Assembly (NCBI GenBank): GCA_029260515.1
Contig: JAJDDC010000096.1
Coordinates: 124,001 to 188,000, forward strand
Length of the DNA stretch: 64,000 nucleotides
Direction: 5' to 3'
Source: Phycisphaerales bacterium
GTDB taxonomy: Bacteria; Planctomycetota; Phycisphaerae; Phycisphaerales; UBA1924
The first letter of the stretch is position 1. The number at the start of each line of letters is the position of its first letter. The translations under genes and the position numbers were made by a program. Under the pieces are notes generated by a model. That model saw only the letters and a program-made list of their open reading frames with translations, was not told the origin of the DNA and made no database searches. This document shows positions 18,816 to 44,626 of the stretch, one piece after another.

Positions 18816-18983
18816 ACGGAACTTCCGCCACTCAAGGCGGTTTCGAGTTGGGGACACAAGTCTCTCTCCCGAGCATTCGCCCGGGTGGGGGGCGGGTCGG
18901 CACGACGCCCGGCCCGGGGGACGACACGGATGTTGGGGTCGGCGCCCGCTCGGGACCGTCCCGGTAGAAAGGACGCGCACGAG

Positions 18984-19593: not shown

Positions 19594-20322
19594 ATGCGCG
19601 AGCGGGGGTTCTCCGTCATCGAGGTCATGATCGCGGCCGGCGTGCTCGCCGTCGTCGTCGCCCTCGTCCTTCCCGCCGCCCTCGGCCGCTTTGCCGAGCG
19701 TTCGCTCGACGGCGTCGCCCGGGACGTCTCGGCCGCGATCGCCCTGGCACGCTCGGGCACGAGCGAGTCCGGGCTCCCGGTCGCCGTCCGCTTCAGGCTC
19801 GACACCCCTTCCGGCGCCTGGCGGATCGAGTCGGCTCGCATGTCGGAGGGCGACTCCCCCGAACGCCTCGATGGCCTCTCAACTCGTGCAGCCTCCGCCG
19901 AACGCGGCGCCGACCGGGCGGACGCCGAGCCGGACTGGCGCGTGCTGCGCACGCTGCCGCGTGGTGTCGAGGTATTGCGTGAAGCGCCCGAGCCCAGCGA
20001 TGTGCCGCCCATGCCACCCGTCCCCGCCGCGGCTCCGCTCGCCGACGCGGGTGAGACGCCCGAGACGATCCTTGTCGGGATCTTCCTGCCCGGCGGGCGC
20101 TGCGCCGTCGGGGGCGGGTTCTTTCTCGTGCGTGCTCAGGGCACAGCGCCAGAGACCATCACCTCGGGCGTCGAGCTCAACGTGAGCGCCTGGACGGGCC
20201 GCGTCCGCGCCGAGCCCTGGCGTGCGCTCTCCCCCGCCGATGATCTCATGAGCGTGCCCACACCCGAGTCGTTGCCGACCGACTGGCTCGCGCCGCCGAC
20301 GGACGCGGGGGGCGCCCCATGA
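19594..20322 (+). CDS. gspH: Type II secretion minor pseudopilin GspH-like
   Basis: The 242-residue precursor has a very short leader, then G|FSVIEVMIAAGVLAVVVALVL, a canonical prepilin site with Glu at +5. The body begins with a GspH-like part (VARDVSAAIALARSGTSESGLPVAVRF) and then has a long Pro/Ala-rich insert. Its position between gspG and the gspI-like gene supports the assignment, although minor pseudopilins diverge strongly. A GGAG lies upstream of the ATG. Its stop overlaps the next gene by 4 bases (ATGA), so translation is coupled. Confidence 0.72.
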   Translation: MRERGFSVIEVMIAAGVLAVVVALVLPAALGRFAERSLDGVARDVSAAIALARSGTSESGLPVAVRFRLDTPSGAWRIESARMSEGDSPERLDGLSTRAASAERGADRADAEPDWRVLRTLPRGVEVLREAPEPSDVPPMPPVPAAAPLADAGETPETILVGIFLPGGRCAVGGGFFLVRAQGTAPETITSGVELNVSAWTGRVRAEPWRALSPADDLMSVPTPESLPTDWLAPPTDAGGAP

Positions 20323-20903
20323 TCCCGCGCACCTGGCCCGAGCCAACAGCGGTGCGCCGACGCGCGCTCGCCCGCCGCCGGGCCGCGTTGCTGCTCGAGG
20401 CGATGCTCGCCCTCGCCCTGCTCGCGACCGCGTCGGCGCTGCTCGCCGGTGTCGTCCGCGACTCGAGCGCACGCCTGGACCGCTCGCTCGACCGGGCGGC
20501 CGCGGCGGACCTCGCCCGCGCCGCGATCGCACGCATCGAGGGCGGGCTCGCGACCCCCGAAACACTCAACGGCCCCGCCCCCGCCTGGGACCCCGCCGTC
20601 CTGCTCACGCCCGACAACGCCGCGATGGGCGCCCCGGACTCCGACGATATCCCGATCACCGACGCGCCCCTGACCGACCCCGATTGGCGTCTGGCTATCG
20701 AGACCCAGCCCTCGCCCTACGACGGGCTGACCCTGGTCAGCATCACCGCCTCGCGGACCACCACCGCGGGCGTTTCGTTCACGTTCCACCAACTCGTCCG
20801 TCTGGAGGCGCCCGCGCACGACGAGGTGGGCGACACGGACGAGCTGGCCGAGCTGATCGAGCGTGAACAAGAAGCCGCGGCCCGCGGGGAGGCGACGCCG
20901 TGA
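20319..20903 (+). CDS. gspI: Type II secretion minor pseudopilin GspI-like
   Basis: The 194-residue protein has a 21-residue Arg-rich leader followed by AALLLEAMLALALLATASALLAG. This pseudopilin-like helix keeps the Glu but lacks the usual Gly/Phe pair at the cleavage point. Position is the main evidence for GspI, which starts the pseudopilus tip with GspJ and GspK; the body is too diverged to be sure. The acidic tail (DELAELIEREQEAA) has no known role. It overlaps gspH by 4 bases and the gspJ ATG by 1 base. Confidence 0.6.
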   Translation: MIPRTWPEPTAVRRRALARRRAALLLEAMLALALLATASALLAGVVRDSSARLDRSLDRAAAADLARAAIARIEGGLATPETLNGPAPAWDPAVLLTPDNAAMGAPDSDDIPITDAPLTDPDWRLAIETQPSPYDGLTLVSITASRTTTAGVSFTFHQLVRLEAPAHDEVGDTDELAELIEREQEAAARGEATP

Positions 20904-21643
20904 TGCGCCGACGAGGGTTCACGCTCGTCGAGGTCGTGCTCGCGTTGGCGCTGGTCGCGCTGGTCGCCGGGATCACGTTCGCCCTGCTCATCGACATGGG
21001 GGCCCGCGAGGAGCGGGTCGCCAGGCACGCCGACCGCCTCGCGCACGCCGCCGACCTGTTCGAGACGATCGAACGTGCCCTCGCCGGCTCGATGGTCGCG
21101 GCCGGCGACAACAGCGCGGGCGTCTCGGGCGGCGGCGCGGCGCTGTATATCCACTACCGGGGCGTCGCCCCCGCGGGCGATGACGCCGCCCTCGACATGG
21201 TCGAACTCGCGTTGAGCTGGGACGCGGCGAGCGGTGTTATCACCTGTGCGCACACGCTCGCCGACTCCGGCGCGAGCGCCGACGAGGCTCTTGTCTCGGG
21301 CGTCTCGTACATCAGCGTCCGCTTCTACTCGGGTTCGCGCTGGCACGCATCGTTCGACTCGGCCGCGATCGGGGAGCTGCCCTCGGCGATCGAGGTCGCG
21401 GTGTGGTTCGGTCCACGGCGCCAGATCGATGATCTCCAGCAGCCACTCGGCGCCGCCCCCGATCCCTCGGCTCCCGGGCCCCCGGATTTCGAGATGATGT
21501 TCGCCGACGAGTTCGAGGGGCTCGAATCACCGCCCGGGTTCGAGGAGTCGATTGCCCCCGAGCCCCCGATACGCGCGCCGGACCGCAGGCGGATCTTCGC
21601 GGTCCCCGACGCGCCGCGTGGCCAGGCGGAGGTGAACACATGA
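20903..21643 (+). CDS. gspJ: Type II secretion minor pseudopilin GspJ-like
   Basis: The 246-residue precursor has a short MRRR leader and G|FTLVEVVLALALVALVAGI, a canonical prepilin site. The helix is followed by GspJ-like segments (DLFETIERALAGS, DMVELALSWDAASG, SYISVRFYSGSRWH). The C terminus is a long Pro- and Glu-rich tail (about 60 residues) not usual for GspJ. The ATG overlaps the gspI stop as TGATG; a GTG three bases earlier is also possible. It overlaps gspK by 4 bases, and its order between gspI and gspK fits the family. Confidence 0.72.
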   Translation: MRRRGFTLVEVVLALALVALVAGITFALLIDMGAREERVARHADRLAHAADLFETIERALAGSMVAAGDNSAGVSGGGAALYIHYRGVAPAGDDAALDMVELALSWDAASGVITCAHTLADSGASADEALVSGVSYISVRFYSGSRWHASFDSAAIGELPSAIEVAVWFGPRRQIDDLQQPLGAAPDPSAPGPPDFEMMFADEFEGLESPPGFEESIAPEPPIRAPDRRRIFAVPDAPRGQAEVNT

Positions 21644-23187
21644 GGGCGCGTTGCACCTATCGCAAGGCGCCCAGGCGCGCGGGCGGGCTGGTGATCCTCG
21701 CCTCCCTCGTCGTCGTCACGATGGCCGCCCTCGTGGGCTCGGCGATCCTGCTCCGCGCCGACGCGGGCACGGTTATCGCCAGGGGCGAACTGCGCCGCGC
21801 CCAGGCGCGTGCCGCGGCGTGGTCTGGCGTCCAGGCCGTCATGGCCCGCCTTTCCGAGCAGCGCGACGACCTGCTCGGAGGCGGCGCCCCGGTCCTGCCC
21901 GAGCAATGGACCTTCCCGATCGAGTCGGCGGACGGCGAACTTGTCTTCCGCGTGCTCCAGGGCGCGGGTGGTCTGCCTGCGACAAGCGAGAACGCCCGCC
22001 TGGACATCAATACAGCGGCGCCCGAGATGCTCGCCATGCTCCCAGGGCTGAACGAGACGCTCGCAGAGCGGATCATCTCGAGCCGCCCCGAGGGTGGGTA
22101 CGTGAGCGTCGAGTCCCTGCTGGGTGTGGAGGGGATTGATCGGCGCACGCTCATGGGCGAAACACAAGACGATGAAGGCGCGCACGAGCCGACGCCTCCC
22201 CGGCCTGGCGGGCTCGCGGTGTCGGCGCCACCCCTCATCGACCTGCTCACGGTCTGGAGCTTCGACCCCAACGTGCAGGGCTCCGCCTCGGGCGAGTCGA
22301 TCGGTGTGCGCCGCGTACGCCTCCCCGGCGGCTGGTGGACGGACGGCATGGCGATGGCGATCGGGGAGCGATTCGGCGCCCCGAGCCTCTTCGGCGTCGG
22401 CGGCATCGGCCTGGGCGAGGACCCGCCCGCGTCCATCGGCGAGTTGGTGACGGCGCTCCGGGGATCCTCGATCCCGGTCGAGTCGTGGGGCAAGTGGCTG
22501 GACACCTTCACGCCCTACGACGCGACGCACCGGCGTGGGCTGATCGACCTCAACCGGGCGGGCGCCGACGTCCTCGCGGCCGTCCCCGGTCTCGACGTGG
22601 AGCTTGCCGGCGCGATCGTGGACGCCCGCGACCGGACACCCTTCGAGTCCCGGTCCTCAACTGCCTGGATCGTCGAGGTCGGCGCAGTCTCGCCCGAGGC
22701 GTTCGTCGAGGCGGCCGACTGGCTCACGACAAGGTCCACGCAGTGGCGCGTCATCGTGGAGGGCGGGTACGAGGCGCCGACGGCGGAGGGGGCCGAACGA
22801 GGCTCGGCGCCCGCGCTCCTCGACCGCGTCGTGTTCGAGGCTGTGATCGATGTCTCGACGCGCCGCACGCGTCTGGCGACGCTCCGCGAGGTCACAGGAC
22901 TTAACGAGACGCTGGCGTTCTCGCGGGCACTCCTGGCTGGTGACGACGAGCCCGAGCCCCACGATCTGGCGATGGACGATTCGGCCTCGATCGTTGAACC
23001 GGAAGAGCCCGAGTTCGTCCGCCTGCGGCGCGGGCCCGACCCGCTCGGGACGAGCGACGACGTCCCGCCGAGCCTGCCCGCGCCAGAACAGACGAGCGAC
23101 CCTGACGCGCAGGACGCATTACCAGCCCCATCTGCGGGATCAACCGGCGGGCGCGCCGGCCGCTGGACACGCGGGGGTGGGTCATGA
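21640..23187 (+). CDS. gspK: Type II secretion minor pseudopilin GspK
   Basis: GspK caps the pseudopilus tip. The 515-residue protein starts with a basic leader and a hydrophobic helix (GLVILASLVVVTMAALVGSAIL) without the Glu at +5, as is normal for GspK. Two helix-hairpin-helix-like segments follow: LDINTAAPEMLAMLPGLNETLAERI and LIDLNRAGADVLAAVPGLDVELAGAIV. These are the SAM-like domain found in this family. It is longer than typical GspK (about 330 residues) because of an inserted central region and a low-complexity C terminus. It overlaps its neighbours by 4 bases on both sides. Confidence 0.85.
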   Translation: MRARCTYRKAPRRAGGLVILASLVVVTMAALVGSAILLRADAGTVIARGELRRAQARAAAWSGVQAVMARLSEQRDDLLGGGAPVLPEQWTFPIESADGELVFRVLQGAGGLPATSENARLDINTAAPEMLAMLPGLNETLAERIISSRPEGGYVSVESLLGVEGIDRRTLMGETQDDEGAHEPTPPRPGGLAVSAPPLIDLLTVWSFDPNVQGSASGESIGVRRVRLPGGWWTDGMAMAIGERFGAPSLFGVGGIGLGEDPPASIGELVTALRGSSIPVESWGKWLDTFTPYDATHRRGLIDLNRAGADVLAAVPGLDVELAGAIVDARDRTPFESRSSTAWIVEVGAVSPEAFVEAADWLTTRSTQWRVIVEGGYEAPTAEGAERGSAPALLDRVVFEAVIDVSTRRTRLATLREVTGLNETLAFSRALLAGDDEPEPHDLAMDDSASIVEPEEPEFVRLRRGPDPLGTSDDVPPSLPAPEQTSDPDAQDALPAPSAGSTGGRAGRWTRGGGS

Positions 23188-24683
23188 GCCTGACCGCCCG
23201 TGGGATCTACATCGATCTGGACCACGACGCGCTGGCCGTCGCGCGTATCGGCGCAAGGGGCGTGGACGCCTGGGCGACGGCACGCCGCCCCGATTCGGTC
23301 AAACCCGACGAGCCATCGAGCGTCGGCGCGTGGATCGCCGGGGTGCTCGATGAGGCCGGCATCGGGCGCGGGCGGGCGGTCTTCGCCGTCGCCCGCTCGG
23401 AGGTCGTCCTCAAGCTCCTCCGCCTGCCCGGCGGCGAGTCGCTCGACGAGGGCGAACTCGCGGGCGTCGTCCACCTGCAGATGGCGCGCCAGACGGCGGT
23501 GTCGATCGACGACGCGGTCGTGGACTACGTCCCGCTCGAGGGGGGCGAGCCCGAATCCGAACGCCTCGTGCTCGTCGGTGCGATCGCGGGCGAACGCGTC
23601 GAGTGGCGCAGGCGACTCGCCGAGGCCTGCGGGCTCAAGCTCGCGGGCGTGCGTCTGCGGGCCGCGGGCGTCGCGGAACTCGTCGCGAGAACGACGGAAG
23701 ACGCTTCGGCGCCGACGCTCGGGGTCAGCGTCGGGCCCGCGTCGGTCGAGCTGGCGCTGTGCGAGCGGGGCGAGCTGCTCTTCGCGCGCACCGTCGAGCT
23801 GGGCGAGGCCGCGGGCAACAACGCGCGGACCGCGGCAAGGGTCGCCGTCGAGGCCAAGCGGACCGCGATGAGCTTCCGCGTCGCCCAGCGGACCCCCGAC
23901 ATCGCGGGCGTCGTCGTGCTCGGTCGCGACGAGTTGAGCCGGGACGTCGCTCTCGCGTGCGCCGAGGAACTGGGCGTACCCGGCGAGTCGCGCTGGCCGG
24001 ATGTCCGCGGCCTCGACGACGCGGCGCACGAGCAGCAGCGGGCGCTGCTGCCTTTGGCTGGTATGGCGGCGCGAGAGCGGAGTGGTCGGGCGCTGATGAA
24101 CTTCGCCGAGCCGCGCCGGGCGCCCGACGTCGGCGCCCGCCGTCGCCAGCTCGCGCTCGGGGGCGCATTCCTCGCGATCGCGGTCGTCGGCGCGGCATGG
24201 ATCTTCTCACGCCAGCATCTCGACGCGTTGCAGACCCGGGTTGACGCCGCGAATGCCGCGCTCCAGGACAAGCAGGACGAGTACCTCAACGCGTTGGCCT
24301 CCGACGCCCGGGCCAACCACATCGAGTGGTGGCGGTCCGAGGACGTGGACTGGCTGGCGCATATCGACCGCGTCGGCGCGGGCCTGCCCGGGCCAGACTC
24401 GGCGCTGCTCGACACGCTCACGGGCTCGGGTGAGTCGGGGGTTCGGTTCTCGACGGGCGCCTCACAGCCCTACCCGGGGCGGTGGGCGATCGACCGCCGG
24501 GTCACGATGGATATTGCGGGGCGTGCCGGGGCGCCCGGGGTCGCGGTCGATCTGCGCGCGCGCCTGCTGGGGATGGGCGACTACCACGTGGAGACCAAGG
24601 GCCCGGACGTGGACAACACATTCGCGTTCGAGCTGACGACCGACCGTGCCTCGCCCGTCGTGGGTGGGGGGGATGCCCCGTGA
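23184..24683 (+). CDS. gspL: Type II secretion protein GspL (PilM-PilN type)
   Basis: GspL links the cytoplasmic ATPase to the inner-membrane assembly. The 499 residues show an actin-like PilM-type domain first (about 1-300; GIYIDLDHDALAVARI, then LVLVGAIAGERVEWRRRLAEACGLKL). One transmembrane helix follows at about 327-345. The C-terminal periplasmic part resembles PilN: a coiled coil from about residue 350, then a ferredoxin-like segment. This one-protein fusion of PilM and PilN folds is the definition of GspL. It overlaps gspK and the gspM-like gene by 4 bases each. Confidence 0.85.
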   Translation: MSLTARGIYIDLDHDALAVARIGARGVDAWATARRPDSVKPDEPSSVGAWIAGVLDEAGIGRGRAVFAVARSEVVLKLLRLPGGESLDEGELAGVVHLQMARQTAVSIDDAVVDYVPLEGGEPESERLVLVGAIAGERVEWRRRLAEACGLKLAGVRLRAAGVAELVARTTEDASAPTLGVSVGPASVELALCERGELLFARTVELGEAAGNNARTAARVAVEAKRTAMSFRVAQRTPDIAGVVVLGRDELSRDVALACAEELGVPGESRWPDVRGLDDAAHEQQRALLPLAGMAARERSGRALMNFAEPRRAPDVGARRRQLALGGAFLAIAVVGAAWIFSRQHLDALQTRVDAANAALQDKQDEYLNALASDARANHIEWWRSEDVDWLAHIDRVGAGLPGPDSALLDTLTGSGESGVRFSTGASQPYPGRWAIDRRVTMDIAGRAGAPGVAVDLRARLLGMGDYHVETKGPDVDNTFAFELTTDRASPVVGGGDAP

Positions 24684-25663
24684 CGCTCCGCCGCATGATC
24701 CTGATCGGGATCGGCGCGGGGGTCGCGCTGGGCGTTGTGTACGTCGGCGCAGACCGCGTGTACCTGCGCCGGGCGACGAGCCTGCGCGTCGAGCTGGCAA
24801 GCGCCCGCGACCAGGCACGCCGCCTCGATGAGGCGACCGACGCGTACCGCGGCACGCGCGAACGGATCCGCGAGGCCCTCGAACCGACGCTCGGCGCAGA
24901 TCCGCAGATCGTCGAGCACGAACTGCGAGCCGGGCTGGGCGAGCTTGCCCGTGCCAATGGCCTGGGCGACGTCGTCGTGTCGAACGCCGCCCCGAGGGGG
25001 GCGGCCAACCCCGTCGCCCGCGCGCGCATGGACCGGTCGTGGGGGCGGCTGCGTCAGCGTCTCGGGGAACGGGCGGACTTCATGGTCATCCGCGGGCGTA
25101 TCGAGGGCGAGGGCACACTCGAGGCGTCGCTGCGGATGCTCGGAGCGATGCACGCACAAGACTGGATCCACCGCGTCGAGGCGTTTTCCATCCGCCCGGT
25201 CGGGCGTGAGCGCGAGCGGTACGAGTTCAGGGCGGATTTCGCGATCGCTTTCGCGCAGGATTTGGGCGGGGATGGGGGCGGGGGCGAAACGGGATCACCC
25301 GAGCTGGCGCCGATCTCGCCCGGTGAGCGTGCCGCGGTCGCTGGGATCCTCTCGCGGCATCTGTTCAAGGCGCCGCCCGTTCCCGAGCCCGTGGTCCATG
25401 CGCCGCCGCCCCAGGTAACCCCGCCGCCGGCGCCCCCGGCGTACGGGGCCTGGCGCCTGGCGGGCCTGACGGTCACGGACCACCCGGAGGCATTCCTGGT
25501 CGGGCCCTCGGGCCAGTCCATGGTGCTCGCCCCGGGCCAGGCGGTCGAGGGGGCGATTTTCGAGGGTGGGGAGGGCGAGCGGGGGGTGTTTGTGATCGAG
25601 GGAGAGCGGTTCGAGGTCGAGCTTGGAGGGACGCTCGCGCAGCGGCGCGGGCTGGAGGACTAG
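24680..25663 (+). CDS. GspM/PilO-like protein fused to a GspC-like homology region
   Basis: The 327-residue protein starts from GTG overlapping the gspL stop (GTGA). A single N-terminal transmembrane helix and a coiled coil (about residues 30-75) lead into a PilO/GspM-like periplasmic domain (about 80-200). After a Pro-rich linker (about 240-265), the last 65 residues (GAWRLAGLTV, DHPEAFLVGPSGQSMVLAPGQAV, GVFVIEGERFEVEL) have the strand order of the GspC homology region, which in other systems contacts the secretin N0 domain. No separate gspC is in the locus, so this fusion may do both jobs. The GspC resemblance is my judgement from the pattern. Confidence 0.65.
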   Translation: MTLRRMILIGIGAGVALGVVYVGADRVYLRRATSLRVELASARDQARRLDEATDAYRGTRERIREALEPTLGADPQIVEHELRAGLGELARANGLGDVVVSNAAPRGAANPVARARMDRSWGRLRQRLGERADFMVIRGRIEGEGTLEASLRMLGAMHAQDWIHRVEAFSIRPVGRERERYEFRADFAIAFAQDLGGDGGGGETGSPELAPISPGERAAVAGILSRHLFKAPPVPEPVVHAPPPQVTPPPAPPAYGAWRLAGLTVTDHPEAFLVGPSGQSMVLAPGQAVEGAIFEGGEGERGVFVIEGERFEVELGGTLAQRRGLED

Positions 25664-25673: not shown

Positions 25674-25732
25674 GGGCGGCGCATGGCCAGGATGGCCGGC
25701 GCTCGCCCCGAGCGCATGTGACGGAGCACAGG

Positions 25733-28700
25733 ATGCATCGCCAATCCAAGGCGCGGGCGGTTGTGGCATGGAGTCTGGCGGGAGCCGCCGGGCTCGCGGG
25801 ATCGGTGTACGCCCAGGGCGAGCCCCCGGCGGCGCCGACACCAGCGGTAGACGCCCCAAGCGCGGGCGAACCGGCCGACAAACGGATCAGATTCAACTTC
25901 ATCGAGGCGCCCTTCGGCGAGGTGCTCAACTTCTTTGCGCGCCAGACGGGTCTGCCCGTGATCCGCGAGGCCGAGCCGCCCGGGGGGGGGATGACGTTCA
26001 TCTCCGCCGCGGACTACACGGTCCCCGAGGCGCTCGAGATCCTCAACCTCAACCTGCGGATGCACAGTGTGCGTCTGGAGCGTGAGGACCGGTACCTGTA
26101 CCTGCGTTCGCTCGAAGACGCGGCTCGGAGCCCGACCCCGGTCGTGGGCGAGGGCGACCTGGACGCGGTCGATCAGAGCGAGTTCCTCACGGTCTACATG
26201 CCCCTGAACAACGCGATCGCCTCGCAGGTCGCCGAGCGGATCACGCCCCTGGTCAAGGCGCCGGGATTGGTCCAGGCATTCGATTCGCAGAACATGCTGA
26301 TCATCGTGGAAACGGCGGGTCAGTGCCGACGACTGCGCGAGATCGTGCACCAGATCGACTCGGCTCCGCCGGCGGACATCGACTACCGCGTGTTCCCGAT
26401 TCGTTTCGCGGAGCCTTCGACGCTGGCAGACACGCTGCGCGGCCTGGTCCCCGAGCGGGACCAGGTGATGCAGCTGGACAAGAACCAGAACCCGCAGATC
26501 GTGGACGACGTCTCGAAGCCGCCCCTGAAGATCCACGCCGACGAGCGGCTCCGTGCTGTCGTCGTGGTCGGGCCCGGCCAGCGGATGAGCGCCGTCGAGG
26601 AGCTCGTCGCGCTGCTCGATTCTGGCGACGGCGTCGGGGGGGGACGCCAGCTCATGGCCTTCACGCTCAGCGGGGCGGACGCCAACCAGGCGGCACGCGA
26701 GTTGGAGGGGTTTTTCCGGGACGAGGCCGAGAGCCGGCGCCCGCGGATCCAGGCGCTGCCGGCGGTTGGCAAGCTGATCGTGCTCGCCCAGGCCGACGTC
26801 CTGGTGCAGGTGAGGCGGGTGCTCGAGGAGCTGGACCCGGGTTTGGGCGCCGGGGACGCGACGGACACTGTCCGAGCCGCCCGCGTTGTCGGGCTTACAC
26901 ACATGGACGCGCGTCAGGCGGACATGATCGCCAGGCGGGTGCTCACGCCCCGCCAGGTCGCGGTGCTGCGGTTCGCGCCCTCGCCCTCGGGCGACGGGCT
27001 GGTCGTCGCGGGGCCGGCCGCGGATGTGGCGGCGCTCGAGTCGCTGCTGCGCGAGCTGGACGCCGCCCCCGAGCGGAACCGCGAGGCGAGGTTGGTACGC
27101 CTGGGCTCGGGCGACGCGGCGGGCATCCTCGCGATGGCCGAGTCGCTCGAGAAGATGACGGGCGACGCGGACCGCGACGCGGTCCGCGCGATCCTCGACG
27201 AGGGATCGCGGACGGTCACGCTCGTCGGCTCGCGCGAGGGCGTGTCGCGGTACGAGAAGCTGCTCCGCTCGATCCAGGCACAGGCGGCGTCCGACCTCGA
27301 GACCCGAACGTACCGGCTGGAGCACGCGCGGGCGAGCGATCTGACCGGGCGGCTCTCGCGGATGGCCCGCCTGCTGCTCGAGCCGGGCGACGGCGGGGCG
27401 TACCGCGCCCCCGAGTTCGAGGCGTTCGACGAGCTGGACACCGTCGTCGTGCGGGCCCGGCCCGAGCAGCACGAGGTTATCGCTGGGATCGTTGCGCAGC
27501 TGGACACGGATGCGCTGGGCACGGACGTGGAGCTGCGGACGTACCGTATCAGACGGGCGGATGTGGGCAGCGTCGAACGGGCGGTGCGCGACCTGGCCGC
27601 CCGCGGGGCGCTGAGCGAACACGGGCGTCCTGGCGTGACGACGAGTGTCGAGCCCGTGAGCCGGACGCTGCTGGTGTGGGGGCCCGACGAGGCGTTCGAG
27701 AAGGTCGAGGCGCTCATCAAGGAGCTCGACGGCGACGCGGGCCTCCCCGCGACCCGTCTCGAGTTGTACACACTCGGGCACGCCCGAGCCGACCGCCTCG
27801 CGCCGTTGCTCCAACGCCTGCTCGAGACTCGACTCCGCGAGCAGCTCGATGGCGAGGGCGTCGTGCCGCGCGGCCAGCGACTCCTCGAGGTCGAGGCCGA
27901 TCGGGCGACGAACACGCTCATCATCTCGGCGCCCGAGACGATCCACGCGATCGCCCGCCAGCTCATCGATGCGCTGGACACGGAGGCCGCGAGCGTTGGG
28001 CGGGCGGTGATCAAGGTCATCCCGCTGACGTACGCCGAAGCGGGGCAGGTCGCGCAGACCGTGAACCAGGCGTTGCCCGGGATCGAGCTTCCCTCGGGCG
28101 GCGTGGTTCGTGTTGTGGCCGCGGCGGGGTCGAACGCCCTTCTGCTGACGGGCGCCGAGGCGGATCTGAAGAAGATCGAGCAGCTCGTCGAGCCCTTGGA
28201 CCGCCAGGCGTTCGACCCCGAGAAGCCGTCGATCGAGACGTTCCCGCTGCGCCACGCGGACGCGATCGCGGTCGCGCCGACAGTCGAGCGGCTGCTCGTC
28301 GATCAGCTCCAGACCGACCCTCGCGTGCTTGCGCTGCGCCTGCGTTACAACCGAGGGCAGTGGCCCGAGTCGCCCAAGATCCGCGTCGAGAGCGAGCGGA
28401 GAACCAACAGCCTGATCGTCTCGGGCCCGTCCTCCACGATCGAGCTGGCGCGGTCAGTCATCGAGCGGCTGGACCAGCCGGCAGAGGCCGCGGACCGTGT
28501 CGTCCGGGTGTTCACGCCCGCCAAGGGCGAGCCCGGTCGCCTGGCGCAGTCGGTCGGGCGGATCGCCCGCGAGACGATGGCCCAGGGGCGGCGCCCGTTG
28601 GAACTCACGCCCGAACCCGCGACGGGCAGTGTCGTGGTCATCGGCGACGAGGCGCAGGTCGGCGAGGCGATGCGCCTGCTGGCCGAGCAGGACGACCTGA

Positions 28701-31700
28701 CGGTCGCGATGCCCCTGGTCGAGGTGCGGTCGTTCGACCTGGAGCATGCGGACGTCGCGGCGGTCTCGCGGATCGTCGAGCAGGTGCTCTCGGACCGCTC
28801 GCGTTGGCCCGAGGAGCTCGAGAGGGCGCGTCGGGCCGGCGCCCCGGTGCCCAGACCGGGGTTGTATCCCGACGCCGGGACGTCGCGTCTGTACGTCAGC
28901 GCCGCCTCGGCGTTGATGCCCCTGGCGTCGGAGTTGATCGATGCGCTCGACAAGCCCGCGCCCGCCACGGCGGTGGAGGTCCGTGTGTTCCGCCTGGAGG
29001 AAGGCGACGCCGAGAGTGTCGCCAGTTCGCTGACCGACGCGGTTGCCCTTGGCCTGCGCCCGGGCGAGCCGCGCCCGACGATCCGGGCCGAGGCGTCGAG
29101 CAACTCGGTCGTCGTTGCGGCGTCCAAGGAGCGGCTGGAGACGGTCGCGGGTCTGATCGAGGCGATGGACTCGGTCGCGGTCGAGCCGGGGGGGCTCGGT
29201 GTGCGGACGGTCTTCCTCGAGCATGCGCGGGCCGAGTCGCTCGCGCCCGTGGTCGAGCAGGTGCTGACCAAGGAGACGCTGTTCAGCGTCGCGCCCGAGT
29301 GGGGGCGGTGGCAGCTGGCATGGAACATGTCCAACCGCGGGCAGACGCCCGATTTCTCGGGAGTGAAGGTTGCGGCCGAACGGAGGCTCAACGCGCTGAT
29401 CGTCAGCGCGCCGTTGCCCATGCTGGAACTGGCCGAGGAGCTGATCTCGGGCCTCGACGTCGATCCGGGCGACGGGCCCGGGGGCGAGCGGACGGTCCGG
29501 GTGATCACGCTCATGAACGCCGACGCGCGGGAGCTGGCCTCGAATGTCGAGGCGCTCTTCGAGGACGCGGACGAGTCGGTCGCGGCGCCCACGGTCCGCG
29601 TTGATACCTCAAGCAACTCGCTGATCGTGCGGGGCACGGGCGAGCAGCTCAGCCTGATCGACTCGCTGGCAGAACACCTGGACAAGGCGACGCTCTCGTC
29701 GCGGTCGCAGGTGCGTCTGATCACGCTCGACCGCTCGCGCGTCAGCGCCGCGGAGATGGCAAAGACACTCAAGAGCGTCCTGGAGGAGCGGGGTGGCGTG
29801 CGCGTCGAGGTGATCTCGGCCGACGACCTGCTGGCCGATCCCGAAGATTCGGGAGAGGACGAAGACAACGGGTCGAACAGTTCGGTCGCGCCCGCGGGCT
29901 TCTCACCCGTGTTCGGCGCGATCGTGCGGAGCGTCGTTTCCGTGCTCGGCTCGCAGCCCGTCGAGGGGAACACCCCTGGCGACGAGCCGACGGTACGGAT
30001 CGCGGTCGATCCCACGACCAACACGCTGATGATCATCGGCTCGGCCCGCATGACCGACCGGATCGCGTCGCTCGCCGCGGAGCTGCAACGCCAGATGCCG
30101 ACCGAGCCGACAGGCGTGCGGATCGTCGAGCTGCCCGAGTCTGTCGATGCCGGGCGCGTGGCGCAGGTGGTCACGCAGACCGTCCGCCAGGTCGGGCAGG
30201 CCAACGCCCGCAACCCCGGCGGGTTCTCCGGGCGCGTCGCGGTCAGCGCCGATCCCGCCGGGCGCGCGGTCATCATCTGGGCCAACGACACCGATTTCGA
30301 GAGTGTGCGCGAGCTGATCGCGGGCCTGAGCCGTCTGGACAAGTCCGACGAGCTGGAGGTCAAGGTCTACCCGTTGAGCAACGTGACCGCCCGCTCGGCG
30401 CTCACGTCGGTCCGCGACCTGGTCAGTCCGGCGCCCCGGGGACGCCAGGCGCAGCGAGTGCGGACGCTCGAGCTGAGCGTGGTGGACGCCGACGGCCAAA
30501 CCGTCCGGCGCGTGATCGACCCCCAGCGGGTCAGCGTGACGATGGACCCGAGCCAGACGGCGCTGATCGTGACGGCGCCGACGGACTCGATGCCTCTGAT
30601 CGACCGGTTCGTGTCGCTCATCGACCAGAGCCCGGACCGCGACCGCCTGGCGATCCGCCAGTACCAGCTGGAGAACGCGGACGCCGGGCAACTGTGGCGG
30701 ACGCTGCAGACGCTCTTCGACGCGCAGCGCCAGGGCGCGGCCGCCCGCGAGCAGTCCCGGGCGAGGTTCGTCGCCGACGATCGGACGAACGCCTTGCTCG
30801 TGACCGCCTCGGCCGAGCAGCACGAGGAGATCGGACGCATTCTTGAGTTGGCGGATGTCTCGCTGGCGGACGCGGACCTGGAGCTGGCGATCATCCCGCT
30901 CCAGCTCGCCCGCCCGAGCGCGGTGCAACGGATCGTCGAGCAGGTGGTGATCGGCAAGGACCCGGCGCGGGCCGAGCGGGTGCTGATCTCGGCCCAGGAC
31001 ACAACGGGTGTGTTCGTTGTTCGCGCGCCGAGCGAGGAACTGGCGCAGATCCGCGACATCGTCGCGCAAGTGGACACCGCGGAGACCGCCGCGTTCCCGG
31101 TCCGCTCGGTGACACTCGAGCGTGCGGACGCCCAGAGCGTCGCGAACTCGCTGCAGCAGTTCTTCCGCGAGCGGGCACGCCTGAGCGCGACGCGAGGCTC
31201 GCGCCAGGGCGGCGGGGCGGCGATCATCGGCGACCGGCGCTCGGGCACGCTCGTCATCGCGGCGTCCGACGAGGACTACGAGCAGCTGGCCGAGCTCGCC
31301 CGCCAGTTCGACGCGCCCGCGGAGGCCAAGCAGCTCCAGTACAAGCTCATCCAGCTCCAGAACGCGCGGGCCTCGGATATCCGAGACACCGTGCAGACCA
31401 TCGCCTCGGAGCTGCAATGGGAACGGTCGAGCTGGTTCCGCGGCAACCGCGACACGGACGAAGACCGCATCCTCGTCCAGGTCAACGACCGGACGAACAC
31501 GGTGCTGATCTTCGGACAGGGCGAGACGATGGCCGTCATGGAGCGGATCGTTTCTGAGCTGGACACCGCGCCCGGGGAGCAGGGGGCGCGGGTCGTGCGC
31601 GCGGTGCGTGCCGAGGGCGCCGATCTGAACGCCCTGGCCCGGATCATCGAGGAATCGACGGCCTCGCCCAACTGGCGATGGTGGATGGGTCCCGACCCGG

Positions 31701-34700
31701 ACGCCGTCTCGGTCGAGGTGGACCGCGATCGGCGCCTGCTGATCCTGATCGGCGCCAAATCGCAGGTTGACGAGGCTGTATCGCAGATCGAACAGATCGC
31801 CGCGGCGACCGGGGAGCTCGAACAGATCGAGACGGTCGTGCTCGACAACGCGAGGGCGAGCGAGGTCGCACGCGAGCTACAGCGTGCGCTGCCCGAGACG
31901 GTGCGTGTCGAGGTGACGGCGGTCCCCCGGACAAACTCGATCATGCTCACGGGCGCCGAGGAGGACCTGGCGGTCGCCAGGCGGCAGATCGCGGCCCTCG
32001 ACGTCGAGTCCCCGCACGCGCCGGTCGAGTTCCGCAAGTTCCCGCTCGAGCACACAACGGCGTACGACGTCGCGTACTCGATCCGGGCGCTCGTCCGCAA
32101 CCGCCCCCGGGCCGAGGGCGAGCCGGCGCCCGTGCTCGACCCGAGCCCGAACGACGACGTCCTGTGGGTGACCGCGACAGCCGACGAGATGCAGTTCATC
32201 GAGTCGCTCGTCGAGCAGCTCGACCAGCCCCAGCGGACCGAGCGGACAACGGAGTTCATCAAGCTCGAGTTCGCGGGCGCCGAGCAGGTCCGCGACGCCC
32301 TCGGTGTCTTCTACGGCCCGTACGCGCGAGAGGCGAGCACGCCCGCCGAGCGCAACGTCACGATCGTCGCGGATCCCGCGTCAAACTCGCTCGTCGTCAG
32401 CGCTGACGCGAGCATCTGGGAAGGACTGCGGGGCCTGCTCGAGACACTCGATACTCCCGAGTACGACACGACGCAGCAGCTGGTGGTGATCCAACTCAAG
32501 CACGCCAGCGCCGTGAGCGTCGCGCGCGCCCTCAACGAGGGCTTCCGCGCCCCCCTCGAGAACCAGCTCCAGCAGGAGCGGGTGCGCCTGGAGGCCGAGC
32601 GCCGGCGCAACGGCGACCGGGACACGGTCTCGACGCCCGCGGTGCTCGTGAACGCCGAGGGCGTGCCGACCGTGTCGGCCGAGCGCGAGACCAACTCGCT
32701 CATCGTGTTCGCGGGTCGCCAGGAGCTCGAACGGATCCGAGAGATCGTCACGCAGCTCGATGTGCCCGACATCCTCAAGCTCCCCGAGGCGCGTCTGATC
32801 GCGCTGACGAGCGGGCGGGCCTCCACGCTCGCCGAGGCGGTGCGTCGGGTCTTCCTTGCGACCGGCGAGGCGGACAACCCACGCCGCGTCATGATCTACG
32901 GCGACGACGCGAGCAACGTGATCATCGTCCGGGCCGAGGAGGCCGAGTTCGCGCAGATCCAGGCGTTGGCCGGGCGGTTGCAGGACCAGGCGGCCACAGC
33001 CGAGGCCCTGCCCCGGGTGATCGCGCTGCGCAACACGCCCGCGGCCCGGATGCGGGACACGATCCTGCGGACGTTCGAGCCCATCGCCCGCCAGCGGGGC
33101 GAGGCGTTCACGGTCCAGATCGACCGGGGGAGCAACAGCATCGTCGTCGCCGCGAGCCAGACGCTGCACGAGCAGATCGCACGGATCGTCGATCAGCTCG
33201 AGGCGGCCGCGGCGCCCGACGACGGGGAAGGGGCGACCACGGGCGGGATCGGGCAGAACGTCACGATCATCGAGCTGGAGCACAACTCGCCCTCGGACGT
33301 GATCCGCCATCTTCAGGCCCTCGGCGTGACGCAGCTTCAGCCCGCGGACCGCCCGGGTCTGGTCGGCGAGCCGGTGCGTCTTGTCGCGCTCACGACCCGC
33401 CGCGGCATCAGCGTGCTGGCAAACCCCGCCGACGCGCGGACGATCGAGCGCCTCGTCCGCGAGCTGGACAAGGAACCCGGGCTCGGCGACGAGCACGTCA
33501 AGATTGTCCGGCTCAAGACCGCACGCGCCGAGGCGCTGGCGGCGATGCTCCAGCGGATGCTCACGCCCAGCGCCGACGCGGAGCACTCGCCAGCCGCCGA
33601 GGGGCTCGTCGAGCAGGTGCGCCGCCTGAACCTTGTCAACGGCGGCATGGACGAGGCCGCGGTCCGCCTGGACCTGGCCCGTCCGATCCGCGTGATCGCC
33701 GACGCGCAGAGCAACTCTGTCATCGTGTCGTCGTCGATCGGCAACACGCTGGCGGTCGCCGAGCTGGTCAAGACGTTCGACACAGTCCCCCTGGGCGACG
33801 CGGTCACGCTGCGGGTGTTCCCACTGGAGAACGCGTCGGCCGCGCGGATCCGTGCGATCGTCGAGGACCTGTTCCGGCGCGGCGACGAGCTGCAACGGAT
33901 CCCGGGCACGCAGAACCGGGGCATGCCATCGACCACGATCGGCAAGGCCCTTGTCGGCCCGATCGTCGTGACGGCAGACGAGCGGACCAACGCGATCGTC
34001 GTCGCGGGGCCCGAGGAAGCGGTGGCGCTGGTCGAGGTGCTTCTCACGGACCTGGACGACGACGACCAGGAACGCGGATGGATCGAGACGTCGGTGATCC
34101 CGCTGACGCACGCCGACGCGGTGACCCTTGCCCAGAAGCTGCGGACCGTGATCGTGGAGGGGATGGGCGAGACGCCCGACGCCGTGGGCCTGCGGACGCA
34201 GGTCGGGCGCCTGCGCGTCGCGCTCGCGGGCGGGGACGGCGCCGTCACGGGCGACCTGTACTCGCGGATGGACAACCTGGTCATCGAAGCCGAGGAAAAT
34301 CTCAACGCCCTGATCGTGCTGGGCACGGACGCGAATATCGCGGTGATCCGCGAGCTGGTGACGCTCATGGACGTCGAGCAGGCGGCCGCGAGCAACACGG
34401 TGCGGGTGCTCCCGCTGGAGCACGCCGCGGCCGAGCGCGTCGCGGGGATCATCGCCGACATCTTCAGTCAGCGCCAGGGCCTGCGTTCGCAGCGCCCCGA
34501 GGACCGGGTCATCATCTCGGTGGACGCGCGGACCAACGCGTTGGTCGTCTCGACGAGCCCGCGGAGCTTCGCGGTGCTCCAGGGGTTATTGCGGACGCTG
34601 GACAACGAGGAATCGCGGTTCGCGGTTGGGCTGCACGTCATCCCTGTGACGGGTACTGACGTGAACCGCCTGGCGCCAAAGATCCAACGGCTGATGCGTG

Positions 34701-36949
34701 AGCGGATCGACGCGAGCCGCAACCGGGGCGGGCGTGAGTCGCCCATGGACGTCTTCCAGGTCGAGGCCGAGCCGGCGAGCAACTCGCTCATCGTCGCGTG
34801 CTCGGACGAGAACCTCGAGCTGGTCAACGAGCTGATCGCGTCGCTGACGACCGGGGATATCGAGGTCGCGGGCGCCGAGCGGACGGCGCTGATCTCGGTC
34901 AAAACACCCGGGCTCGCGCCCGATATCGCCAGGACGATCACCGAGTTGTACGTCGTCAAGGAAAACCAGAAGCGGGGCCAGCGGTCCGTGGGCGTCGTCG
35001 CCAACGAGCGGATGAACGCGCTGATCGCCAGCGGCAGCGAGGAGGACATCACCGCGATCCGCGGCCTCGTCGCCCAACTCGACCAAGCGCCCGTGGAACT
35101 CTTGCAGGATGTGCGGCGTGTCCGCCTGGACTCGGCCGGCGCCCGCGAGATCGTGGACCTCGTGCAGAACGTCCTCGCGGGGCGTGCGATCGGGGGCGGC
35201 GCGGGCGGGCCCTCCGCGACCCGCATCCGCATCTTCCAGGAGCAGATCGCCGAGGCCGCGGCCGAGGCGACCATCGACGGCACGCTGCGCGATCACGTCA
35301 CGCTCACGCCCGACCCGCGGACAAACTCCGTGCTCATCAAGGCGCCCCCGGAGCTAATGGACCTGATCGTGACGATGATCGAGGACCTGGACGCCGAGAC
35401 CCGGGGCGACCGCGTGATCGAGCAGTTCCGCCTGGTCAACGCCGACGCTGGGCAGATGCAGCAGCTGCTCGTGCAGCTGTTCAACCTCCAGCAGAACGGC
35501 GACCGTTACATCCTCGCCCCGACCGGTCCCGAGACGACCGACGAGTTCGAGTCGGGAACGTTCACACCCATCGCCGACGAGCGCCAGGAGCTGTCGGTGA
35601 CGATCGACAGGCGGACCAACACGCTGCTCGTCTCGGGCACGCGCGAGTACCTCGACGAGGTCCGCAAGGTCGTGGTCGAGCTGGACTCGATCGAGGCGAC
35701 CGAGCGAGAGCGCCTCGTCTACCACCTCCGCAACACCAACGCCGCGGACATCGCGTTGACACTTCAGGCTTATTTCAGCGGCGAGCGTGAGCTCCGCCGC
35801 TCGACCCTCGGTCCCCAGCTCACCGGGTCCATGGCCCGCGAGCTCGAGCAGGAGGTCACGGTGGTGGGCGACGAGCGGAGCAACAAGCTCGTCATCTCCG
35901 CCTCGCCCCGATACATCGAGACCGTCGCCCAGATCGTCGAGGAGCTCGACTCGGCGCCCCCGCAGGTCATGATCCAGGTCCTGCTGGCCGAGGTCACGCT
36001 CGACGATTCCAAGGAGTTCGGCATCGACGTCTCGATCGGGGGCGTCCTGCAGGAGGGCGAGGGTGTCGCGGACCTGACCAACCGCAGCAAGATCGGCGGG
36101 GACGGGTACGCCTTCCAGAAGCTCGCCGCGGGCGCGGGCATCGCGACCGCCCTGGGTGTGCCCAACTTCTCCGTCGCCAGCGCCGACTTCGGCCTGCTCA
36201 TCCGCGCGCTCCAGGAGCAGGGCAAGCTCGAAGTCCTTTCGCGCCCCCAGGTCCAGGTCAACGACAACGAACGCGCCTTCATCCAGGTCGGTGAAAACAT
36301 CGGCATCACCGACGGCGTGGAGCGACGCGATTCGGGCGGCACCACCGCCATCGTCCGGCGCGAGGACGTGGGCATCATCCTCGAGGTCGTCCCATCGATC
36401 TCCGCCGACGGCTTCGTCCGCATGGAGATCACGCCCGAGATCTCGACGCTCTCGGACCGCACGACCGAGATCGACACGAACTTTGCCGCGCCCATCATCA
36501 CCCAACGCCGCGTCGAGACGACGGTCACGGTCAAGGACGGGCAGACGGTCGTGATCGGCGGGCTCATGCAGTCCACCGACCAGCTCCGCAAGACCAAGGT
36601 GCCGTTCCTGGGCGATATCCCGCTGCTCGGCGTCCTGTTCCGCTCGCAGAAGCAGTCGTCGGTCAAGACCGAGCTGCTCGTCATCCTCACGCCGTACGTC
36701 ATCCCGGGTGACTCGGCGACCGCCTGGGAACGCCAGAACCGCCTGACCGAGCACTCGCTGGATATGCTCGAGGACGCGACCAAGATCCGAGAGGTCCTCG
36801 AGCTGGAGCACAAGATCCCGCTCGACGCCTCCGACGAACACGGGTTCGGCGACGTCATGCGACTGATCCCGCCGTCCAACGGCTCCGGGACGTGGAAGGA
36901 AAGGCTCGAGGGCAATGGCTCGATCGGCAACGATGATTCTCCGCGCTAG
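25733..36949 (+). CDS. gspD: Giant type II secretion secretin with about 39 tandem N-type domains
   Basis: GspD forms the outer-membrane channel of type II secretion. This version has 3,738 residues, about five times the usual length. A signal peptide ends at AGSVYAQ. An N0 domain follows (about residues 51-130; FNFIEAPFGEVLNFFARQTG). By my count about 39 secretin N-type (KH-like) repeats then run to about residue 3,405, with a mean spacing near 84 residues, each ending in an NSLIVS-like strand and an I..LD helix. One normal secretin domain follows (about 3,411-3,656) with LEVLSRPQVQVNDN, VTVKDGQTVVIGGLM and PFLGDIPLLGVLFR. GGAG lies 6 bases before the ATG; a GTG 15 bases upstream is also open. 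The reading frame is intact throughout, so it is not an assembly of broken genes. Confidence 0.95.
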   Translation: MHRQSKARAVVAWSLAGAAGLAGSVYAQGEPPAAPTPAVDAPSAGEPADKRIRFNFIEAPFGEVLNFFARQTGLPVIREAEPPGGGMTFISAADYTVPEALEILNLNLRMHSVRLEREDRYLYLRSLEDAARSPTPVVGEGDLDAVDQSEFLTVYMPLNNAIASQVAERITPLVKAPGLVQAFDSQNMLIIVETAGQCRRLREIVHQIDSAPPADIDYRVFPIRFAEPSTLADTLRGLVPERDQVMQLDKNQNPQIVDDVSKPPLKIHADERLRAVVVVGPGQRMSAVEELVALLDSGDGVGGGRQLMAFTLSGADANQAARELEGFFRDEAESRRPRIQALPAVGKLIVLAQADVLVQVRRVLEELDPGLGAGDATDTVRAARVVGLTHMDARQADMIARRVLTPRQVAVLRFAPSPSGDGLVVAGPAADVAALESLLRELDAAPERNREARLVRLGSGDAAGILAMAESLEKMTGDADRDAVRAILDEGSRTVTLVGSREGVSRYEKLLRSIQAQAASDLETRTYRLEHARASDLTGRLSRMARLLLEPGDGGAYRAPEFEAFDELDTVVVRARPEQHEVIAGIVAQLDTDALGTDVELRTYRIRRADVGSVERAVRDLAARGALSEHGRPGVTTSVEPVSRTLLVWGPDEAFEKVEALIKELDGDAGLPATRLELYTLGHARADRLAPLLQRLLETRLREQLDGEGVVPRGQRLLEVEADRATNTLIISAPETIHAIARQLIDALDTEAASVGRAVIKVIPLTYAEAGQVAQTVNQALPGIELPSGGVVRVVAAAGSNALLLTGAEADLKKIEQLVEPLDRQAFDPEKPSIETFPLRHADAIAVAPTVERLLVDQLQTDPRVLALRLRYNRGQWPESPKIRVESERRTNSLIVSGPSSTIELARSVIERLDQPAEAADRVVRVFTPAKGEPGRLAQSVGRIARETMAQGRRPLELTPEPATGSVVVIGDEAQVGEAMRLLAEQDDLTVAMPLVEVRSFDLEHADVAAVSRIVEQVLSDRSRWPEELERARRAGAPVPRPGLYPDAGTSRLYVSAASALMPLASELIDALDKPAPATAVEVRVFRLEEGDAESVASSLTDAVALGLRPGEPRPTIRAEASSNSVVVAASKERLETVAGLIEAMDSVAVEPGGLGVRTVFLEHARAESLAPVVEQVLTKETLFSVAPEWGRWQLAWNMSNRGQTPDFSGVKVAAERRLNALIVSAPLPMLELAEELISGLDVDPGDGPGGERTVRVITLMNADARELASNVEALFEDADESVAAPTVRVDTSSNSLIVRGTGEQLSLIDSLAEHLDKATLSSRSQVRLITLDRSRVSAAEMAKTLKSVLEERGGVRVEVISADDLLADPEDSGEDEDNGSNSSVAPAGFSPVFGAIVRSVVSVLGSQPVEGNTPGDEPTVRIAVDPTTNTLMIIGSARMTDRIASLAAELQRQMPTEPTGVRIVELPESVDAGRVAQVVTQTVRQVGQANARNPGGFSGRVAVSADPAGRAVIIWANDTDFESVRELIAGLSRLDKSDELEVKVYPLSNVTARSALTSVRDLVSPAPRGRQAQRVRTLELSVVDADGQTVRRVIDPQRVSVTMDPSQTALIVTAPTDSMPLIDRFVSLIDQSPDRDRLAIRQYQLENADAGQLWRTLQTLFDAQRQGAAAREQSRARFVADDRTNALLVTASAEQHEEIGRILELADVSLADADLELAIIPLQLARPSAVQRIVEQVVIGKDPARAERVLISAQDTTGVFVVRAPSEELAQIRDIVAQVDTAETAAFPVRSVTLERADAQSVANSLQQFFRERARLSATRGSRQGGGAAIIGDRRSGTLVIAASDEDYEQLAELARQFDAPAEAKQLQYKLIQLQNARASDIRDTVQTIASELQWERSSWFRGNRDTDEDRILVQVNDRTNTVLIFGQGETMAVMERIVSELDTAPGEQGARVVRAVRAEGADLNALARIIEESTASPNWRWWMGPDPDAVSVEVDRDRRLLILIGAKSQVDEAVSQIEQIAAATGELEQIETVVLDNARASEVARELQRALPETVRVEVTAVPRTNSIMLTGAEEDLAVARRQIAALDVESPHAPVEFRKFPLEHTTAYDVAYSIRALVRNRPRAEGEPAPVLDPSPNDDVLWVTATADEMQFIESLVEQLDQPQRTERTTEFIKLEFAGAEQVRDALGVFYGPYAREASTPAERNVTIVADPASNSLVVSADASIWEGLRGLLETLDTPEYDTTQQLVVIQLKHASAVSVARALNEGFRAPLENQLQQERVRLEAERRRNGDRDTVSTPAVLVNAEGVPTVSAERETNSLIVFAGRQELERIREIVTQLDVPDILKLPEARLIALTSGRASTLAEAVRRVFLATGEADNPRRVMIYGDDASNVIIVRAEEAEFAQIQALAGRLQDQAATAEALPRVIALRNTPAARMRDTILRTFEPIARQRGEAFTVQIDRGSNSIVVAASQTLHEQIARIVDQLEAAAAPDDGEGATTGGIGQNVTIIELEHNSPSDVIRHLQALGVTQLQPADRPGLVGEPVRLVALTTRRGISVLANPADARTIERLVRELDKEPGLGDEHVKIVRLKTARAEALAAMLQRMLTPSADAEHSPAAEGLVEQVRRLNLVNGGMDEAAVRLDLARPIRVIADAQSNSVIVSSSIGNTLAVAELVKTFDTVPLGDAVTLRVFPLENASAARIRAIVEDLFRRGDELQRIPGTQNRGMPSTTIGKALVGPIVVTADERTNAIVVAGPEEAVALVEVLLTDLDDDDQERGWIETSVIPLTHADAVTLAQKLRTVIVEGMGETPDAVGLRTQVGRLRVALAGGDGAVTGDLYSRMDNLVIEAEENLNALIVLGTDANIAVIRELVTLMDVEQAAASNTVRVLPLEHAAAERVAGIIADIFSQRQGLRSQRPEDRVIISVDARTNALVVSTSPRSFAVLQGLLRTLDNEESRFAVGLHVIPVTGTDVNRLAPKIQRLMRERIDASRNRGGRESPMDVFQVEAEPASNSLIVACSDENLELVNELIASLTTGDIEVAGAERTALISVKTPGLAPDIARTITELYVVKENQKRGQRSVGVVANERMNALIASGSEEDITAIRGLVAQLDQAPVELLQDVRRVRLDSAGAREIVDLVQNVLAGRAIGGGAGGPSATRIRIFQEQIAEAAAEATIDGTLRDHVTLTPDPRTNSVLIKAPPELMDLIVTMIEDLDAETRGDRVIEQFRLVNADAGQMQQLLVQLFNLQQNGDRYILAPTGPETTDEFESGTFTPIADERQELSVTIDRRTNTLLVSGTREYLDEVRKVVVELDSIEATERERLVYHLRNTNAADIALTLQAYFSGERELRRSTLGPQLTGSMARELEQEVTVVGDERSNKLVISASPRYIETVAQIVEELDSAPPQVMIQVLLAEVTLDDSKEFGIDVSIGGVLQEGEGVADLTNRSKIGGDGYAFQKLAAGAGIATALGVPNFSVASADFGLLIRALQEQGKLEVLSRPQVQVNDNERAFIQVGENIGITDGVERRDSGGTTAIVRREDVGIILEVVPSISADGFVRMEITPEISTLSDRTTEIDTNFAAPIITQRRVETTVTVKDGQTVVIGGLMQSTDQLRKTKVPFLGDIPLLGVLFRSQKQSSVKTELLVILTPYVIPGDSATAWERQNRLTEHSLDMLEDATKIREVLELEHKIPLDASDEHGFGDVMRLIPPSNGSGTWKERLEGNGSIGNDDSPR
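26120..35960 (+). repeat. Tandem secretin N-domain coding repeats (about 39 units)
   Basis: Each unit is 210-320 bases long (about 84 codons on average). Units differ at the protein level by far more than recent copies would, so they diverged long ago. The best-kept part is the strand between a charged turn and an I..LD helix, for example ERRTNSLIVSG, ERSNKLVISAS and PRTNSIMLTG. Several units (near 27.2, 30.3 and 31.8 kb) are weak matches. Confidence 0.8.
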
Positions 36950-37436
36950 TCTCGTGCTCACCCTGGCGTTTGTGGGCGGGTGTGCGGCGACGCAGGACGA
37001 CGCCTCACCACGGGGTGCGACACACTCGACCGCCGCGTCCGGGGTGGCGCCCGCGCAGCTGCTCATCGCCGCGGACTCCAATCTCACGGACTCGGACGCC
37101 AACGGGTACCCCGACACCTTCCAGGTTGTCGCGTACCTGTTCCCGTCCCCGGAGACCTCCGCCCAGCCCATCTGGGTCGATGGGTCGTTCGAGTTCACGC
37201 TCGCCGGGCGCGACGGCGAGCCCATCGAGCGGTGGATCTTCGACACGGACGCGAGCGTCGCCGCCCGTCTCAAGACTCCGGTGGGGCGGGCCCAGTCGTT
37301 TTTCCTGCGATTCGGGGGCGGGCTCGACAAGATGCAGCCGACCGTCGCGGACCTCCGTGGGCGGTTCGTGGGCGTCCAGGGGCGGTCTCTCGACGCGGCG
37401 GGCGCGACCAGCGTCCGCCTGGGCGCCCGTCACTAA
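36915..37436 (+). CDS. Small lipoprotein after gspD, candidate pilotin
   Basis: This 173-residue protein has a signal sequence ending in the lipobox VGGC, so it is probably lipidated in the envelope. It contains a calcium-loop-like DSNLTDSDANGYPDTF and a short beta-rich domain (FEFTLAGRDGEP, SFFLRFGGGLD). No family is recognised. The gene overlaps the end of gspD by 35 bases in another frame, so it is expected to be cotranslated with it. Pilotins are small lipoproteins that guide secretins to the outer membrane and are often encoded near them; that role here is only an inference. A second ATG at 36933 is possible. Confidence 0.7.
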   Translation: MARSATMILRASLVLTLAFVGGCAATQDDASPRGATHSTAASGVAPAQLLIAADSNLTDSDANGYPDTFQVVAYLFPSPETSAQPIWVDGSFEFTLAGRDGEPIERWIFDTDASVAARLKTPVGRAQSFFLRFGGGLDKMQPTVADLRGRFVGVQGRSLDAAGATSVRLGARH

Positions 37437-38494: not shown

Positions 38495-38536
38495 GGCAGG
38501 GTTATCCGGGGCACGGGCCTGCGGGCGGGGACCAGG

Positions 38537-43533: not shown

Positions 43534-43559
43534 GCTTGAACCCCTGCATGGGAGCGGAG

Positions 43560-44474: not shown

Positions 44475-44626
44475 CGCGGCGGATCGCCCAGAGCCGCGAC
44501 GCCCGGGGCGATCCGGCCCGCGTGTCTGATGTGGGGTGGCCGAGGGCGGGTCCGATCCGGCGTCTTTTACCCCGGTCTTGACGACGAAATCATCAGCCCC
44601 GCGGGCCGGACGCCGATAGGTCTGTC

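Follow-up and report, generated by a model that had tools for sequence, protein, structure and literature searches.

Secretins are ring-shaped outer-membrane homo-oligomers of 12 or more protomers, and the published members carry one to six ring-building domains. In ordinary GspD, the secretin of type II secretion systems (T2SS), the N domains form stacked rings. GspD proteins such as PulD, XcpQ/XcpD, EpsD, and ExeD share one plan, namely a signal peptide, an N0 domain, three ring-building domains joined by short linkers, and one secretin domain, which together amount to about 650–750 amino acids (aa) encoded in a gsp operon.

How many N domains a secretin carries depends on its machine (PMC10550240, PMC8563730). 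Thermus thermophilus PilQ, a type IV pilus/DNA-uptake secretin of 757 aa, is lengthened by extra ring domains; its six stacked N rings, a number called unusual, reach 35 nm together with the secretin and are described as spanning most of a wide periplasm (PMC5745081). The f1 phage protein pIV lies at the opposite extreme, with N0 and N3 only (PMC8563730).

The secretin described here keeps the GspD plan, and GspD proteins are its best sequence and fold matches, but it has 39 ring-building domains instead of three and 3738 aa, that is, five to six times the ordinary length. Its array would hold more than six times as many rings as that of T. thermophilus PilQ. It is encoded in the 64,000-nucleotide stretch of DNA that we analyzed (hereafter, the window, to which coordinates refer unless another locus is named), which belongs to a 3.83-Mb draft genome in 113 contigs. 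Also unlike ordinary GspD, some families divide the giant protein over two or three genes, and the gene is followed by that of a lipoprotein without a known family. An account of such giant secretins was not found in the full-text literature searched, mostly outside subscription journals, and a GspD-type secretin with an array at least six times longer than any known to us, together with its segmented form, is apparently undescribed.

The giant gspD gene and its operon

The reading frame begins with an ATG at 25733, or with an alternative GTG five codons 5′ of it at 25718, and ends at 36949 on the + strand; internal stops are absent, and the frame is supported as a secretin by Pfam, a repeat HMM, and NCBIfam. 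From the ATG, one reads a signal peptide directly in the sequence (aa 1–27, 25733..25813, cleaved between AGSVYA and QGE), then the N0 domain (aa ~50–135, 25880..26137), the array of 39 Secretin_N units (aa 155–3418, 26195..35986), and the pore domain (aa 3492–3657, 36206..36703), all on the + strand. The mature protein has a computed mass of ~402 kDa and a pI of 4.8. The first-pass annotation of this DNA had described one intact frame with a signal peptide, an N0 domain, about 39 N-type units, and one secretin domain, and its count, order, and coordinates were right.

Each of these domains was assigned by matches of its own. The N-terminal part resembles the XcpQ N0–N1 structures (E~4e-4), and an N0 HMM made from the giants also matches the N0 of ordinary GspD proteins. 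Pfam places Secretin_N on 39 stretches (1011 bits) and PF00263 on a single one (E=4.6e-49); the 39 units, as the annotation had supposed, are true secretin N domains. The repeat HMM, made from the window protein and its relatives, tiles the whole array with 39 units, the weakest scoring 21 bits, with gaps of at most 19 residues and a large loop insertion in unit 16. This HMM may miss some units where arrays have diverged most; the count of 39 is not inflated by the method, since 17 ordinary secretins score only 3–5 units with it.

Solved and predicted structures give the same picture. Among proteins of solved structure, GspDs match best by sequence, over aa 3289–3661, and a predicted model of the last units and the pore can be superposed on experimental GspD structures with Z 13–15. 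Within the array, units 25–30 are predicted to fold as beta-alpha-beta-beta-alpha (an AlphaFold AF2 monomer of six units), and Foldseek together with the predicted fold identifies the units as GspD N domains. Apart from KH-like cross-matches, which arise because KH and Secretin_N share a fold, no other Pfam domain or binding motif was found in the array, and a viral structure library returned weak KH-like matches only. The NCBIfam GspD equivalog TIGR02517 exceeds its cut-off, with a score inflated by the many repeats. As judged from sequence, the protein thus has a C-terminal pore and an N0 domain followed by ring-building domains, the marks of the secretin superfamily, and sequence matches and the gsp gene neighbourhood identify it as the GspD of a T2SS.

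The giant gene closes a T2SS operon. The ATPase gene gspE (T2SSE and MshEN domain matches) lies on the opposite strand (14131..15813, −), and a glutathione peroxidase-like gene (16830..17522, +), which in relatives frequently lies immediately 5′ of gspF, precedes the run of gspF (17544..18725), gspG for the major pseudopilin (18885..19526), a gspH-like pseudopilin gene (19594..20322), a gene in the gspI position (20319..20903), a gspJ-like pseudopilin gene (20900..21643), gspK (21640..23187), a gspL/PilM-like gene (23184..24683), and a gspM-like gene (24680..25663), all on the + strand. The gspI-position gene has no Pfam match and is named by position and synteny only. This gene order is kept in most of 20 upstream regions of relatives; G045 and a short stretch of G059 were unmatched. 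A separate gspC was not found in the window operon; on inspection, the C-terminal ~70 aa of the GspM-like protein look like a GspC HR domain, but a PDB profile search matches no GspC structure.

The last bases of gspD are shared with a gene for a conserved lipoprotein (36915..37436, +; lipobox FVGGC). In many relatives, its homologues stand directly 3′ of the giant gspD, the two genes often overlapping by 4 bases, and the family carries the motif D-x-D-x-N-G-[YF]-x-D. It matched no Pfam family and no convincing PDB relative, and its sequence is unrelated to the known pilotin families; from its position, we propose it as a candidate pilotin or accessory factor.

The operon is followed in the window by pstS-pstC-pstA-pstB-like genes (37562–44581), and of 56 loci with long flanks, ~30 have these phosphate-uptake genes downstream in the same orientation. 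Such a neighbourhood suggests a link between the T2SS and phosphate, for example through secreted phosphatases.

Distribution and history of the array

Search for similar-sized secretins in Phycisphaerae, as the annotation had proposed, and they turn out to be common. A secretin frame of more than 3,000 aa occurs in many of the 60 nearest relatives of the window genome, and one of at least 2,300 aa in at least ~70 of the 248 genomes of a class-wide sample, including families well outside the window's order. The giants span ~2,400–6,200 aa, the largest among the matches listed having 6169 aa and 63 units. Several of their genomes are single contigs (these include G139, G322, G335, G361, G485, and G521). 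Loci in named records come from Phycisphaerales or Phycisphaerae bins, and a collection-wide scan, with patterns tuned to giant secretins, returned Planctomycetota-type bins among its best 80 matches (205 further loci ranked lower). Three bins titled Cyanobacteria, Leptolyngbya, and Vicinamibacteraceae (L070, L106, and L129) carry the planctomycete locus, and their titles are probably wrong.

A tree built from the last units and the pore puts the ordinary secretins into a single group with full support and all giants on the other side, and it pairs the window secretin with that of a congener (100/100); as far as these sequences go, the tree is compatible with a single origin of the giant form. 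Since some genomes hold both kinds (e.g., L187 and L204 in G342), giant and ordinary secretins belong to separate systems. Secretins of intermediate size (~1,270–1,440 aa, 7–9 units; L214–L223) are common in other planctomycete classes.

The units pair one-to-one across species in the unit alignment. Compared with congener L034, which has 50 units, window units 1–6, 7–23, and 24–39 correspond to units 1–6, 16–32, and 35–50; the window protein therefore lacks 11 units, through two in-frame losses of whole blocks of nine and two. Exactly 50 units were counted by the repeat HMM in ten family members, and unit number ranges from 36 to 50 within the window's family, with 63 in one genome.

Mean identity among the units of the window protein is 27%, whereas other lineages hold recent copies with 64–89% identity, which come as blocks of at least two units with periods such as 2, 4, 5, and 12. 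This block-wise arrival explains why, across 40 arrays, adjacent units are never more than 47% identical, whereas identity is as high as 89% between units further apart. The idea that neighbouring units are specially unlike was dropped: the dip at distance one stems from overlapping unit ends and is gone with trimmed units.

For selection, we relied on the same-genus pair L065/L052, in which dN/dS is ~0.10 and 37 of 37 units have far fewer amino-acid-changing than silent differences. The values for the window protein versus its congener (0.35) and for L041/L042 (0.64) were set aside because high G+C limits synonymous change. Read from these comparisons, the array is old, under selection, and still gaining and losing blocks, which upholds the earlier view of an old expansion kept by selection.

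One should always ask whether so long a frame is an artefact, produced by chimeric assembly, by a frame that runs on, or by gene decay. In favour of this, the draft genome is in many contigs, and giant genes in two relatives are interrupted; against it stand the identical architecture in tens of genomes, single-contig ones included, the one-to-one unit orthology, the low dN/dS of the close pair, and units too divergent for repeat mis-joining. We regard an artefact as scarcely conceivable, and assembly error or a pseudogene is ruled out by the other genomes, the unit orthology, and selection. The first-pass annotation, which had likewise argued against an assembly error, named two findings that would count against it, namely units that are not N domains and a chimeric assembly with shorter proteins in relatives; neither was encountered, because HMM, predicted fold, and Foldseek agree and giants are common. 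As for the interrupted genes, L062 (G050) has two frameshifts and L036 (G057) one in-frame stop, from sequencing error or decay.

A proposed tube of stacked rings

The giant GspD is the outer-membrane secretin of a complete T2SS, and we consider it probable that its 39 units form rings that stack coaxially with N0 as a tube. Other secretins have about 15 copies, and each unit would join its equivalents on the other protomers in a ring of about that number. The stack would run from the inner-membrane platform to the outer-membrane pore, with N0 meeting a GspM/GspC-like partner, GspL, GspF, and GspE at the inner-membrane end, and the pseudopilus would push cargo along the tube. At an estimated 2.5–4 nm per ring, for which Thermus PilQ (PMC5745081) serves as the yardstick, its length would be ~100–160 nm, and a 15-mer of the 402-kDa mature chain would therefore make an assembly of ~6 MDa. 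That the units differ from one another plausibly holds the protomers in register as they assemble.

Beyond the identification of the units as GspD N domains, several lines of evidence support ring stacking. Firstly, the inter-unit linkers, measured from the end of the last helix of one unit to the first strand of the next, are short and nearly invariant (median 11 residues, 5–95% range 10–14, for 1,717 junctions in 45 large arrays), as in ring-forming ordinary GspD, where the linker has 10 residues. Secondly, unit orthology is one-to-one and every unit is constrained in the L065/L052 pair. Thirdly, N0 and the pore stand at their proper ends, and the gsp operon is syntenic. The fold prediction proposed with the annotation bears out the fold of the single unit; with a pTM of 0.29, the geometry between units in the six-unit AF2 monomer is not confident and is unusable as evidence of stacking, so AlphaFold speaks for the unit fold only.

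It counts against a tube that an ordinary periplasm is several times narrower than 100+ nm, that images of such cells did not turn up, and that unit number is not fixed (36–50, and 63). Other planctomycetes do have enlarged periplasms (PMC5394234). Planctomycetes also possess crateriform structures, which, like the proposed tube, are large envelope complexes joining the outer and cytoplasmic membranes, and whose composition is not given as secretin in the same paper (PMC5394234). Because such structures are reported absent in Phycisphaeraceae isolates (PMC8882080), the match between the tube and a deep periplasm that the annotation had suggested cannot be assumed, and the idea that crateriform structures are the visible form of the giant secretin is not supported for that family.

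Variable unit number also fits a different arrangement, in which rings form only next to the pore and the rest of the array is a string of beads that ties the inner membrane to a pore free to move, or that bridges a variable membrane spacing. Such a flexible tether would tolerate the in-frame loss of whole units, which has not broken the gene, and the AF2 model leaves the orientation of neighbouring units unfixed. We judge it unlikely, as the linkers match those of ring-forming GspD in shortness and invariance, constraint is kept on every unit, and some arrays, described below, are cut into separate polypeptides.

Alternatively, the rings may form while many units have gained a second job, such as binding of peptidoglycan, polysaccharide, or cargo, so that the array would serve less as a spacer than as a periplasmic scaffold or a surface for sorting. 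The long-kept identity of individual units, large loop insertions such as that in unit 16, and the phosphate-uptake genes that often follow the operon would suit this reading; the array yielded no binding motif or additional Pfam domain beyond the KH-like cross-matches, and we think it quite improbable, more so than the tether.

If the units do form rings, no secretin channel that we know of comes near this one in length, and it would be among the largest envelope-spanning protein assemblies. A periplasm-spanning conduit could then lengthen by the addition of rings, one would have to ask how a pseudopilus can operate across 100 nm, and there would be a molecular handle on the unusual planctomycete envelope. 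Should the tube turn out to be wrong, a GspD with ~40 selected N domains across a class would still need explaining.

Arrays split over two or three genes

Fused arrays of 37–41 units are found in families f4, f80, f85, f86, f87, f91, and f94 (f80, f86, and f87 with one member each). In family f89, the secretin gene instead encodes its own signal peptide and 13–15 units with the pore, N0 being not detectable, and directly upstream lies a second gene with a signal peptide, N0, and 25–30 units without a pore. This two-gene form occurs in G351, G440, G472, and G497, and also in G458, whose first gene has a gap or shift; a similar arrangement is seen in two f88 genomes, up to the ends of their contigs. 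One two-gene example has N0 and 25 units on the first gene and 15 units with the secretin on the second, and G356 (f90) has three genes, with N0 and 10 units, 15 units, and 15 units with the pore, respectively. The split arrays on adjacent genes are at L180 (5937-14312 and 530-5773), L184, L227, L228, L229, and L224 (8619-19499). Their totals of 38–43 units lie near those of the fused arrays in sister families, with N0 only on the first gene and the pore only on the last.

These arrays favour non-covalently stacked rings over a flexible tether, because cutting the chain into two or three polypeptides, as in f88–f90, would sever a covalent tether, whereas rings can join without a covalent link. 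A total near 40 is kept in the split arrays, which suggests that height matters. Somewhat short of an even chance, in our estimate, is the broader proposal that Planctomycetota build segmented tubes of ~40 coaxial rings from one to three polypeptides, which would be joined end to end without covalent links into a structure on the 100-nm scale with a ruler-like total. The two- and three-gene versions offer a natural test of ring stacking and register.

Outside the class, there are two genomes in which comparable parts lie apart. G190 encodes a protein with N0 and 31 units without a pore (L188, 8274-16376) and, elsewhere, a nine-unit secretin in which N0 is not detectable (L216), and G201 encodes N0 and nine units without a pore (L190, 3809-8353) as well as a nine-unit secretin, again with N0 not detectable (L222). 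That these non-adjacent pairs might be two-piece secretins with unlinked genes is only a guess.
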